Shown: in pieces, positions 2,086 through 10,003 of the stretch
Layout: each line of letters opens with the position of its first letter
How positions within the stretch are numbered: position 1 is the first letter of the stretch
Assembly: GCA_020722205.1 (NCBI GenBank)
Contig: DYLF01000008.1
Coordinates: forward strand, 1 to 48,342
Length of the DNA stretch: 48,342 nt
Direction: 5' to 3'
Origin: Desulfobacca acetoxidans
GTDB taxonomy: Bacteria > Desulfobacterota > Desulfobaccia > Desulfobaccales > 0-14-0-80-60-11
The notes under the pieces: model-generated
What the model saw: the letters and a program-made list of their open reading frames with translations, nothing else
Told to the model about the DNA's origin: nothing
Databases searched by the model: none
Program-made: the position numbers and the translations under genes

Positions 2086-2880
2086 TTAATCGCCTGATAA
2101 TTGTAAGGCTTTAAGGATATCCGCCGCTTCGGCGGGGGCCGGGAAATCATTTAAGGGTCTGCCCTCCAGACATGCTGATTGGATATTTTTACTATGCGGC
2201 AGGGCGGCGAGGATGGGAACCCCCAACTCAGTAAGCTTAGCGGATAAAAGAGCTTTTTCCTCGACAGTAGATATCTTGTTTAATATGGCCCCCTTGAAAG
2301 AGGCCCCAGCGGTCAGTGTCAGGTACATAATCTTGCCGGCCAAAGAGATGGATTCGAGAGACGGTTCGACCACGCAGATTACTTGGTCAACGCTGGTTTC
2401 CACACCGCGGCCGAAATGTTCGATGCCGGCGTCCAGGTCTATCAGGGCTAGCTCATTGGGAGCCAGGGAAAGTTTTTTGAGGAACTCCCTGGTGACCACC
2501 CCCATGGGGCAGGCGCAGCCCTCGAGGGACTGATGGATTTTGCCAGTGGCCACCATGCAGCGGCCTTCTTTTTGGACGATGTATTCCGATGGAATGGCCT
2601 CGCTGGTGATCTGGTCCCGCGCCCAGATGCTCATTGCCGGTTCTGTCTCGCCTTTGGTAAAGCGCGCCAGCATCTTTTGCTGCACCGCCTTTTTGCCGCC
2701 CGCCAAATCCAAAAGGGGCAGAGGCGGCCTCTCCATGCCCAACATCCAATACAGGCTGGCATTGGATTCGTCGGCATCCACAATTATTACTTTCTTGCCC
2801 AGCTTTTGAAAGGCGTTGGCCAACAGAGCCACCACGGTGCTTTTGCCGCTACCGCCTTTGCCGCAAATGCAAATCTTCAT
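2086..2880 (-). CDS. cooC: CooC-like nickel-insertion ATPase
   Basis: 264 residues. The deviant Walker A GKGGSGKST is at residues 7-15. A VDADESNAS switch stretch lies near 34-42, and a CxC pair (GCACPMG, Cys122 and Cys124) corresponds to the cysteines that bind metal and hold the CooC dimer. CooC proteins use ATP to load nickel into carbon monoxide dehydrogenase. The start is the ATG at 2880, because it overlaps the upstream methyltransferase stop as ATGA and follows AAAGGGG. No CODH gene lies in this window, so the client is unknown. The divergent nickel operon 1.5 kb away fits a nickel role. Confidence 0.8.
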   Translation of the reverse strand: MKICICGKGGSGKSTVVALLANAFQKLGKKVIIVDADESNASLYWMLGMERPPLPLLDLAGGKKAVQQKMLARFTKGETEPAMSIWARDQITSEAIPSEYIVQKEGRCMVATGKIHQSLEGCACPMGVVTREFLKKLSLAPNELALIDLDAGIEHFGRGVETSVDQVICVVEPSLESISLAGKIMYLTLTAGASFKGAILNKISTVEEKALLSAKLTELGVPILAALPHSKNIQSACLEGRPLNDFPAPAEAADILKALQLSGD

Positions 2881-3752
2881 ATTTTTTGTCCCCTTTCTTC
2901 CTCTGATGAAATACTTTGCCACCAGATAAGGGCGATATTATGGGTCTGGCCTTCCGAAGACCGTCCGCCTTGGCTTGTCTGCAGCAAGGAAATGATCAAC
3001 CTTTCCGTCTCCGCCTGGTCTTTTCCGAACAGCGAAAAATAACGACTATAAAATTTGCCCAAGGTCTCGGGGGGCGGGCTATTGGTGCGAAAACTTAGCT
3101 GCCGGATATTAGGCCGCCGTTCCAGGGTAAAAAGAAGATTGAAGGGGAGCAGCGCCGGGTACCGAAAGGTAGGCAACGGTTGCTGCATGACCGGCTCCCA
3201 GAGGAGATCCCGCATGCTGAACCCTTTCAGATCTGCGGCAACCAGCAGGGCGCACCAACCCTTGGAAAACCCTTCCAGGCGTCGCAGCGTCGGACCATCC
3301 ACAATGGCGGGAGAAAATGAGGCCACCACCAGGTCAAACCGGTCCCGAAAATGACAGTCCGCGAATGACTGGCAAACCGGAAAGATATTGCCCAGCCCAT
3401 GCCAACGCCCTGCAGCCCTCAGAACCTGCAGCATCTTGAAGGCCGGGTCCAAGGCCACTACCTGCGCGCCCCTGGCGGCCAAGGGCAGCGCCAAGGTGCC
3501 CGGGCCGCTGCCCACGTCCAAAACTTTGGCGCCCCCACGGAGAATACCGAGAGAAGACAGAAGTTCCGCCACGGTCTCCCCCAAGGGTAAGGAGTATTTT
3601 ACTACTTGCAAGTAAATATCGCTGACTTCATTCCAAAATTGGAACCAAACCTTCTTATTTTGGTGCATGCCACGACGCAGAGGCGACATCTCATAACACC
3701 GCTTCCAGGCTCGTTCCCAAAAAGCCGGTGAACAGAGGTCTTTTGGCGCCAT
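2877..3752 (-). CDS. SAM-dependent methyltransferase coupled to cooC
   Basis: 291 residues with SAM motif I VLDVGSGPG at about 77-85 and an acidic strand-2 end (VALDPAF). The start at 3752 is chosen because CGGAGAAG lies at correct spacing. A longer frame starts at 3830 without a ribosome site. Its TGA overlaps the cooC ATG, so the two proteins are probably made together. The N-terminal ~60 residues (FWERAWKRCYEMSP) are Trp- and Arg-rich and not family-typical. The substrate is unknown. Pairing with CooC suggests a metalloenzyme or cofactor context, but that is only inference. Confidence 0.75.
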   Translation of the reverse strand: MAPKDLCSPAFWERAWKRCYEMSPLRRGMHQNKKVWFQFWNEVSDIYLQVVKYSLPLGETVAELLSSLGILRGGAKVLDVGSGPGTLALPLAARGAQVVALDPAFKMLQVLRAAGRWHGLGNIFPVCQSFADCHFRDRFDLVVASFSPAIVDGPTLRRLEGFSKGWCALLVAADLKGFSMRDLLWEPVMQQPLPTFRYPALLPFNLLFTLERRPNIRQLSFRTNSPPPETLGKFYSRYFSLFGKDQAETERLIISLLQTSQGGRSSEGQTHNIALIWWQSISSEEERGQKI

Positions 3753-3983
3753 GGTTGCTTCTCCGCGCTGTCGGCATGGTTTAGCTTCCACCTGCGGTTT
3801 CTCACGGTGAGAAAAAAATTCCCCGCTCATCTCACCAGCCCGTGCTTTTTCTGAAGACCTGCTATTGAGTCTGACCCGATAATTTGAAAGCGGGGCCGGT
3901 CAGACACCGACCCACAATGATCATTGCCAACCATTTTTCTTTTCCGCTTTTGAGATTGTGATATTTTTCTTTTATATGGGGCG

Positions 3984-4079
3984 AAAAAAAACCACGAGGG
4001 CCGCACTTTCAGGCGCGTAAGCCTTCGTGGCTGATTGTTCTTAACAATAAGCTATTTTTGGGGGATTCATTTCCCCTTT
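3984..4079 (-). ncRNA. candidate small RNA or terminated leader, ~95 nt
   Basis: On the minus strand a TTGACA-17-TATAAA promoter (4114-4086) predicts a start near 4079. The transcript would fold into three hairpins: GGGGA..TCCCC (about 4076-4060), ATTGTT-AAG-AACAAT (4048-4034), and a 10-bp stem CCACGAAGGC/GCCCTCGTGG (4030-3992, one G-U pair). Eight uridines follow (3991-3984), a textbook intrinsic terminator. No reading frame is present. It could be a free small RNA or an attenuator ahead of the methyltransferase-cooC operon, whose start lies 230 bases further on. No known RNA family is recognised. Confidence 0.5.
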
Positions 4080-4083
4080 TTTA
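4060..4083 (+). terminator. possible plus-strand terminator hairpin
   Basis: GGGGA-TTCATT-TCCCC followed by TTTTTT. A weaker plus-strand promoter (TTGAGA-17-TATATG, 3950-3978) lies upstream, so a plus-strand RNA of ~100 nt overlapping the minus-strand candidate is conceivable. The same hairpin would be the first stem of the minus-strand RNA. Confidence 0.35.
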
Positions 4084-4085
4084 TT

Positions 4086-4114
4086 TTTATAAGTGAATTT
4101 TAATTTTTTGTCAA
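4086..4114 (-). promoter_or_regulatory. sigma-70 type promoter for the candidate small RNA
   Basis: Reading the minus strand, TTGACA (4114-4109), a 17-base AT-rich spacer and TATAAA (4091-4086) form a near-perfect promoter. It would drive the ~95-nt RNA and, by read-through, the methyltransferase-cooC pair. Confidence 0.7.
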
Positions 4115-4159: not shown

Positions 4160-4188
4160 TTGACATAATCGGCATAATTATGAATAAT
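4160..4188 (+). promoter_or_regulatory. nickel operon promoter with internal palindrome
   Basis: TTGACA (4160-4165), 17 bases, AATAAT (4183-4188). A perfect 10-base palindrome CATAATTATG (4173-4182) ends the spacer, and CATAAT also occurs just upstream (4164-4169). An AT-rich repeat in this position is typical of a repressor site, such as a Fur-family or NikR-type regulator. Which protein binds is unknown. Confidence 0.55.
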
Positions 4189-4258
4189 TAGCGACAATCG
4201 GGGAATGAAGCCCCGAGGCGCACTCAAAGTTAACGTTGATCAGAGTTGTAGTGCAAGG

Positions 4259-4312
4259 CCATGAAGGCTTGCCGCCGGGGAAGGGCGGAGGTAAGCTTCA
4301 TGGTTTTTTTTT
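4259..4312 (+). terminator. intrinsic terminator in the nikM leader (attenuator)
   Basis: A long stem starts with CCATGAAG (4259-4266) paired to CTTCATGG (4296-4303) and continues inward through CTTGCC/GGTAAG with small bulges. Nine T follow (4304-4312). It lies between the promoter and the nikM start, 31 bases before the ATG. The 5' leader also holds a hairpin CGGGG/CCCCG (about 4199-4215) and a GCACTCAA/TTGTAGTGC stem (about 4219-4255). ATGAAG at 4205-4210 repeats the left arm, so it could pair with the right arm instead and prevent termination. This suggests regulated attenuation. Confidence 0.6.
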
Positions 4313-4343: not shown

Positions 4344-4949
4344 ATGCATATTTCGGAAGGGGTGCTCAGCCCGGCGGTCTTGGCCGGGGGGGCGGGCTTG
4401 GCGGTGGTGGGCACCGCCATCGGCCTGAAAAAGATCGATTATGATGCTATTCCCCGGGTGGCGTTGTTGTCGGCGGCCTTTTTTGTGGCTTCTCTTATTC
4501 ACGTCCCGGTAGGGCCGGTGGGGTTGCATCTGGTGCTCAACGGCCTCATGGGCCTTTTTTTGGGGTGGCTGGCCTTCCCGGCTATCCTTATCGGCCTGTT
4601 TCTGCAGGCCCTTCTCTTCCAATTCGGGGGACTGACGGTGTTGGGAGTCAACACCGTCACCATGGCGGCCCCGGCAGTAGCTGGTTTTTATGCTTACCGG
4701 GGACTGCTGCGCCGACCGGGGCTGCCCGCCCTAGTGGGGGCCTTTGCCTGCGGGGCCAGCGCCATTCTCTTAAGCGGCCTGCTGGTGGCCGTTGCCCTCA
4801 TCACCACCGGCGAGGGTTTCTGGAAAGTGGCCCAACTGGTCCTCTTGGCCCATATCCCGGTGATGGTTATTGAAGGCCTGATAACATTGTTTGTTTTCCT
4901 GTTTCTCAAGAAGGTCAAACCTGAGATGTTGGAGGGAATTTATGCGTAA
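4344..4949 (+). CDS. nikM: nickel ECF transporter substrate-binding membrane protein NikM (CbiM family)
   Basis: 201 residues, very hydrophobic, with about six membrane segments. It begins MHISEG, the family signature in which the N-terminal Met-His forms part of the nickel/cobalt site, so the start must be exactly this ATG. It is the S-component that captures the metal at the membrane. Its stop overlaps nikL by 8 bases. Followed by nikL-nikN-nikQ-nikO-nikK. Nickel rather than cobalt is inferred from the NikL- and NikK-like companions and the nearby CooC-like gene. Confidence 0.88.
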   Translation: MHISEGVLSPAVLAGGAGLAVVGTAIGLKKIDYDAIPRVALLSAAFFVASLIHVPVGPVGLHLVLNGLMGLFLGWLAFPAILIGLFLQALLFQFGGLTVLGVNTVTMAAPAVAGFYAYRGLLRRPGLPALVGAFACGASAILLSGLLVAVALITTGEGFWKVAQLVLLAHIPVMVIEGLITLFVFLFLKKVKPEMLEGIYA

Positions 4950-9556: not shown

Positions 9557-10003
9557 ATGCAGTCCGAGCAGGAGATCCTCCGCCAATATCTTAAAGAAAA
9601 CGGCCTCCGACGCACCCCCGAGCGGGAGCACATCCTGCAAGAGATTTTTGCCACGCACGAACATTTCGACGTCGATGAGCTTTACCTCAGACTCTGCCAG
9701 AAAGGCGTCAAGATCTCTAAAGCCTCCATCTACCGCGCGCTCAGGCTGTTCCTGGATTGCGGCCTAATCCGGGAGGTGGATTTCAGCGACGGGCACTGGC
9801 ATTTTGAACATATCTACGGGCATAACCAGCATGCCCATTTGCGGTGCCTGGGGTGCGGCGAAATCGTCGAATTTGAAGACCCCAACCTCACCTTACTCCA
9901 GGGACAACTGGGTCGGGACTATCACTATCAAATTGTCAGCTGCCATCTGGAAGTGAAAGGCTATTGCGCCACCTGTGGCAAAACCAGAGAAAAAAGCTTA
10001 TGA
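9557..10003 (+). CDS. Fur-family metal-responsive repressor
   Basis: 148 residues. N-terminal winged helix with LRRTPEREHIL and KASIYRALRLF (recognition helix). The HEHFD hinge motif is at 34-38, the His-rich sensor stretch HWHFEHIYGHNQHAH, and two structural zinc pairs Cys97/Cys100 (CLGCG) and Cys137/Cys140 (CATCG). Whether it senses iron (Fur), zinc (Zur), nickel (Nur) or peroxide (PerR) cannot be read reliably. Downstream feoA argues for iron, while the upstream nickel operon and His-rich peptide argue for nickel. Confidence 0.88.
   Translation: MQSEQEILRQYLKENGLRRTPEREHILQEIFATHEHFDVDELYLRLCQKGVKISKASIYRALRLFLDCGLIREVDFSDGHWHFEHIYGHNQHAHLRCLGCGEIVEFEDPNLTLLQGQLGRDYHYQIVSCHLEVKGYCATCGKTREKSL

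Follow-up and report, generated by a model that had tools for sequence, protein, structure and literature searches.

The RNA encoded on the minus strand at positions 3984-4114 of the window (the whole 48,342-nucleotide stretch of DNA analysed) is probably the leader of a methyltransferase-cooC operon, and would belong to a family of cis-acting attenuators that control genes for nickel (possibly nickel/cobalt) acquisition and nickel enzymes. These leaders would be off by default and opened by a factor that holds a short hairpin, P2. What the analysis shows is the RNA family itself, its two mutually exclusive pairings, the genes around it and how rarely NikR and ANTAR proteins occur.

The usual account of nickel uptake centres on NikR, a DNA-binding repressor. 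The leader RNA described here is shared by sulfate reducers, acetogens, clostridia, spirochaetes and other groups, nearly all lacking NikR, and stands on genes for nickel uptake, the nickel-pincer cofactor and CO-dehydrogenase accessory functions. If confirmed, the family would represent an undescribed RNA-based control of nickel homeostasis, and would provide a testable function for the protein family DUF3842 and a new context for the nickel-binding protein CooT.

The probable methyltransferase-cooC leader

The leader is preceded by a sigma70-type promoter at 4086-4114 on the minus strand (TTGACA, 17-nt spacer, TATAAA). This promoter had been proposed in a sequence-only reading of the window and was borne out; a simple promoter scan missed it solely because the scan accepts only -10 boxes that end in T. 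As that reading also stated, the leader is non-coding, with zero reading frames of at least 60 amino acids across it. Short AUG-started frames in the genome's three copies of the RNA were considered as leader peptides and rejected, being unconserved and, by eye, wrongly spaced from a Shine-Dalgarno sequence. The leader folds at -33.4 kcal/mol, compared with -21.8 ± 3.4 kcal/mol for shuffled sequences (z = -3.45), and is more stable than 200 of 200 shuffles.

Three stable hairpins had been described in the leader, two of which hold. The first is P1 (approximately 4060-4077, minus strand; GGGGA-AAUGAA-UCCCC), with core GGGG-AAAUGAAU-CCCC at 4061-4076, and the second is a strong intrinsic terminator at 3984-4030 (minus strand). 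The middle hairpin (AUUGUU-AAG-AACAAU) is weak, missing in the minimum-energy fold and not conserved among relatives. The terminator ends in U8 as described; the 10-bp stem attributed to it is not unbroken, since an A/C mismatch interrupts it. P2 (GCC-ACGAA-GGC; 4021-4031, minus strand), a putative antiterminator mini-hairpin, overlaps the terminator 5′ arm, and its formation and that of the terminator are mutually exclusive.

The first gene after the leader encodes a class I methyltransferase (2877-3830, minus strand; Pfam Methyltransf_25/11), and is followed by a gene for a CooC-like ATPase of the MinD/ParA type (2086-2922, minus strand; Pfam CbiA, Fer4_NifH). The name CooC is carried over from the sequence-only reading; no equivalog model established it for this gene.

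Further copies in the same genome

The divergent leader of nikM (4199-4312, plus strand) turns out to be this RNA again, a second copy that had previously been missed. Its parts stand in the same order as in its twin: a TTGACA promoter, a GGGGAAUGAAGCCCC hairpin, and GCCAUGAAGGCUU as the terminator 5′ arm. The promoter lies at 4160-4188 (TTGACA, 17 nt, AATAAT), P1 at 4199-4215 (CGGGG-AAUGAAG-CCCCG), P2 at 4256-4270 (AGGCC-AUGAA-GGCUU) and the intrinsic terminator, ending in U9, at 4259-4312, all on the plus strand. The start codon of nikM follows 31 nt after the terminator. This gene, nikM/cbiM (4344-4949, plus strand; Pfam CbiM, E = 4.6e-56), is the first of a nickel/cobalt ABC transporter operon that extends to approximately 7953 on the same strand through nikL-like, nikQ-like, nikO-like and DUF4198-type genes, named by eye from open reading frames. 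A Fur-family-like regulator gene, also recognised by eye, is located downstream of the nikM operon region (9557-10003, plus strand).

The third copy of the RNA, elsewhere in this genome, precedes a TonB-dependent receptor gene. A divergent leader pair arranged as in the window was also seen at locus L245 (G163:C46:88500-95200), where one side carries two tandem terminator units before a TonB receptor-like gene.

Distribution of the RNA family

From pattern searches and comparison with Rfam, the RNA family is widespread and undescribed in that database. A strict pattern, GCCAYGAAGGC-N(12-42)-TYRTGGTTTTT, was used with its reversed form as control. It matched 16 of 59 relatives, all within the same order, with 0 matches to the reversed pattern; the reversed pattern also had 0 matches in 395 genomes. 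When 84,980 named genomes were surveyed, the matches listed included members of Desulfobacterota, Nitrospirota, Clostridia, Spirochaetes, Synergistetes and further groups, along with a few chance matches in Bacteroidetes and similar groups. A looser pattern matched 95 of 247 genomes of the phylum, with approximately 13 matches for its reversed control.

All loci examined yielded 160 distinct copies from several phyla, with several paralogues per genome and with tandem units at some loci (L245, L246 and L084). No tested copy matched Rfam at the gathering score, and permissive thresholds gave only unconvincing sub-threshold matches near the RNA. Rfam lists no such family, and the genes downstream are mostly nickel/cobalt genes. 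The earlier proposal of an undescribed, nickel-linked RNA is supported.

Genes downstream of the RNA

Enough downstream DNA was available for 99 copies. Of these, 84 lie ahead of a same-strand gene of a listed set, mostly nickel/cobalt genes, compared with 0 of 12 chance loci, although the query genes were partly drawn from the same loci, so that this count is more a description than a blind test. The set comprised NikM, NikK/DUF4198, NikA-type ABC proteins, TonB receptors, CooT, DUF3842, LarEBC, CobN, ECF S-components and nickel-linked methyltransferases. Independent family models confirm NikM/CbiM, DUF4198, SBP_bac_5, TonB receptors, CooT and CobN downstream, and LarE, LarB and LarC score above NCBIfam cut-offs. 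Among metals, nickel accounts best for this gene set; cobalt is also possible.

Several individual loci extend this picture. A copy in a Clostridium metagenome-assembled genome without CooT is located upstream of larE-larB-larC, the nickel-pincer cofactor genes (L138:1005-4062). Class I methyltransferases like the neighbour of cooC directly follow the RNA at L043, L053, L075, L088, L136 and L246, and at L136 the methyltransferase is followed by NikBC-type permeases. The ECF S-component transporters at L077, L125, L137 and L142 carry this leader in the vicinity of DUF3842 and are candidate nickel transporters, not so annotated. CobN-type chelatases downstream of the leader (L100:1142-4117 and, by eye, L249:203-2347) may have a cobalt/cobalamin or a nickel role.

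Alternative pairings and their covariation

In all copies P2 has the form RCC-AYGAA-GGY, a consensus largely set by the search pattern itself, and can exist as a mini-hairpin or as the 5′ arm of the intrinsic terminator. The P2 hairpin and the pairing with the terminator 3′ arm exclude one another. Across the 160 copies, the pair formed by loop base Y with the terminator is C-G in 111, U-A in 32, U-G in 16 and C-A in 1, and the outer pair of P2 is G-C in 134, A-U in 15, G-U in 7 and other in 4. Both alternative pairings covary, with p-values that are inflated by relatedness; as a further caveat, the P2 outer base pairs in the terminator too, and the patterns fixed most of P2. Base pairs were counted by script on the leaders because whole-leader alignment with MAFFT misaligns P1.

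The P1 loop, of 4-6 nt, ends in NGAA (AUGAA, ACGAA, AGAA or UGAA), and the P1 stem varies freely, with every pair type seen. A shuffle control was used for P1 because the way in which P1 hairpins were picked favours paired stems: 48 of 85 leaders reached a P1 score of at least 8, compared with 0.8 of 85 dinucleotide shuffles. P1 was recognised in only about half of the copies, and the linker between P1 and P2 is variable, mostly 25-45 nt.

The terminators range from -20 to -26 kcal/mol and P2 from -2.5 to -4.8 kcal/mol. Given this much greater stability of the terminator, the leader would be off by default, and something must hold P2 for read-through to occur. The arrangement is that of a cis-acting transcription attenuator: a 5′ leader in which terminator and antiterminator exclude each other, followed by a co-oriented operon.

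Proposed mechanism

The transcript would begin approximately 10 nt ahead of P1. In the default state, the growing RNA would fold into the intrinsic terminator, and transcription would stop after approximately 97 nt. A factor, presumably a protein, may recognise both hairpins with NGAA loops, P1 and P2, and hold the latter (GCC-AYGAA-GGC); the 5′ arm of the terminator would then be sequestered, and RNA polymerase would read into the operon. Nickel shortage is the presumed signal for opening the attenuator, and the factor may be DUF3842, sometimes acting with the nickel-binding CooT.

A bolder extension can be advanced only tentatively. It holds that a phylum-crossing attenuator family is a main control of nickel uptake in NikR-less anaerobes, and that DUF3842 founds a new class of RNA-binding antiterminators, which would read paired AYGAA hairpins according to nickel status.

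Candidate partner proteins

NikR is missing from all 29 genomes examined in the order and turned up in 1 of 42 further carriers, leaving 41 without it; the same search was positive in 5 of 14 named control genomes. CooT, a nickel-binding dimer (Kd 9 nM) without a clear role (PMC6006190), occurs in 27 of the 29 genomes of the order and in 30 of the 42 other carriers. Its absence from 12 of 42 carriers ruled it out as a universal partner.

On patterns of co-occurrence, DUF3842 emerges as the best partner candidate, as a lead rather than a result. It is present in 10 of the 12 carriers without CooT, and in 53 of 58 tested carriers, compared with 0 of 8 chance genomes and 0 of 14 named controls; the 58 include 16 genomes of the order, all counted as carriers, two of which (G002 and G010) were matched by the looser search only. 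Within the phylum, DUF3842 was found in 46 of 50 RNA-positive and 42 of 197 RNA-negative genomes (odds ratio 42; p = 9e-21, inflated by relatedness), where RNA-positive status was assigned by eye among the matches listed and genomes with other matches were counted as negative. By family, a hand count gave approximately 20 of 21 RNA-positive and 12 of 63 RNA-negative. DUF3842 is also encoded near the RNA in 23 of the 105 copies around which DNA was examined, compared with 0.24 expected.

A strictly universal partnership was rejected, as DUF3842 is absent from 5 of 58 and 4 of 50 carriers in the two counts. The genomes in which it is missing are G028, G423, G433 (of the same species as G209), G439, G440, G087, G159 and G257; in G087, CooT alone is encoded before the RNA. 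A search for variant RNAs beside DUF3842 found 1 in 20 loci of pattern-negative genomes.

Structure prediction gives DUF3842, with confidence, a Rossmann-like domain in which a DGQGGGIG loop is conserved; the protein has no Cys or His residue that is conserved. A Foldseek search with this model returned generic Rossmann matches only, with no known RNA-binding protein among them, and a literature search returned no paper on DUF3842 or on a nickel riboswitch.

Alternative explanations

The two strongest alternatives concern the identity of the factor inside the attenuator model, and confidence in them overlaps with that in the main reading. It is quite possible that DUF3842 is a mere member of the regulon, such as a nickel-handling enzyme or chaperone, and that the antiterminator is another protein or a general factor. 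DUF3842 is often encoded downstream of the RNA and adjoining CooT (in this genome the two genes are adjacent, on another contig), and it is present in 42 RNA-negative genomes and missing from several carriers. However, nearly every carrier of the RNA has it, irrespective of the target genes, and in seven loci (L077, L089, L105, L125, L137, L139 and L142) it is upstream of, or divergent to, the RNA, and is therefore not merely a target of it.

That P1, the linker and P2 form a nickel/cobalt-sensing aptamer, with no protein required, is unlikely. Such a direct metal riboswitch would be consistent with an RNA found in several phyla next to nickel/cobalt genes, and with the lack of any tested protein universal among its carriers. 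However, the conserved parts amount to two short hairpins with like loops, of which P1 often goes unrecognised, and the linker is variable. Moreover, since the conserved alternative hairpin opens the gene, metal bound there would turn uptake on, which for an uptake regulon is the wrong sense unless the metal acts elsewhere.

The attenuator model itself competes with a free-standing, trans-acting small RNA of approximately 97 nt, the reading originally favoured for this element. This is now improbable, despite the RNA having its own promoter, a strong terminator and paralogues within a genome: copies keep to the 5′ ends of operons, directly upstream and in the same orientation, the conserved part of the terminator 5′ arm can fold into an alternative hairpin, both structures covary, and tandem terminator units precede one operon. 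The fallback offered in the sequence-only reading, an attenuating leader of the methyltransferase-cooC pair, is better supported. An ANTAR-type antiterminator RNA, which follows the same logic of two like hairpins with the second overlapping the terminator (PMC8934654), is very improbable, as an ANTAR partner is contradicted for this order by the occurrence of ANTAR proteins (PF03861) in 1 of 29 genomes and their absence from this genome.

Comparison with known systems

The NiCo riboswitch (Rfam RF02683) has a junction aptamer and controls efflux genes. Both it and the nickel RNA tie RNA-based control to Ni2+/Co2+; the nickel RNA, however, precedes uptake and nickel-enzyme genes, and no tested copy matched Rfam. 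The TwoAYGGAY motif, judged by its name, would have two hairpins whose loops repeat one short conserved sequence. It was classed as not cis-regulatory, with no nickel link in that paper (Weinberg 2010, PMC2864571). Its loops are AYGGAY, in contrast with AYGAA in the nickel RNA, and it occurs in different taxa.

The NikR regulon of delta-proteobacteria covers nikMQO and nikK (Rodionov 2004, PMC545781), both of which would also be controlled by the nickel RNA. NikR, however, is a DNA-binding repressor and is absent from nearly all carriers of the RNA.

The ANTAR leaders (eut and nas) carry two hexaloops in which A occupies position 1 and G position 4, whereas P1 and P2 of the nickel RNA have NGAA/AYGAA loops of 4-6 nt (a pentaloop in P2), and nickel genes follow. 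Their linkers also differ: EutV action was lost when the eut linker was extended by 20 nt (PMC8934654), whereas the P1-P2 distance of the nickel RNA is longer, mostly 25-45 nt. In both systems, two hairpins share a like loop, the second overlaps and excludes an intrinsic terminator, as P2 does, and several leaders belong to one regulon.
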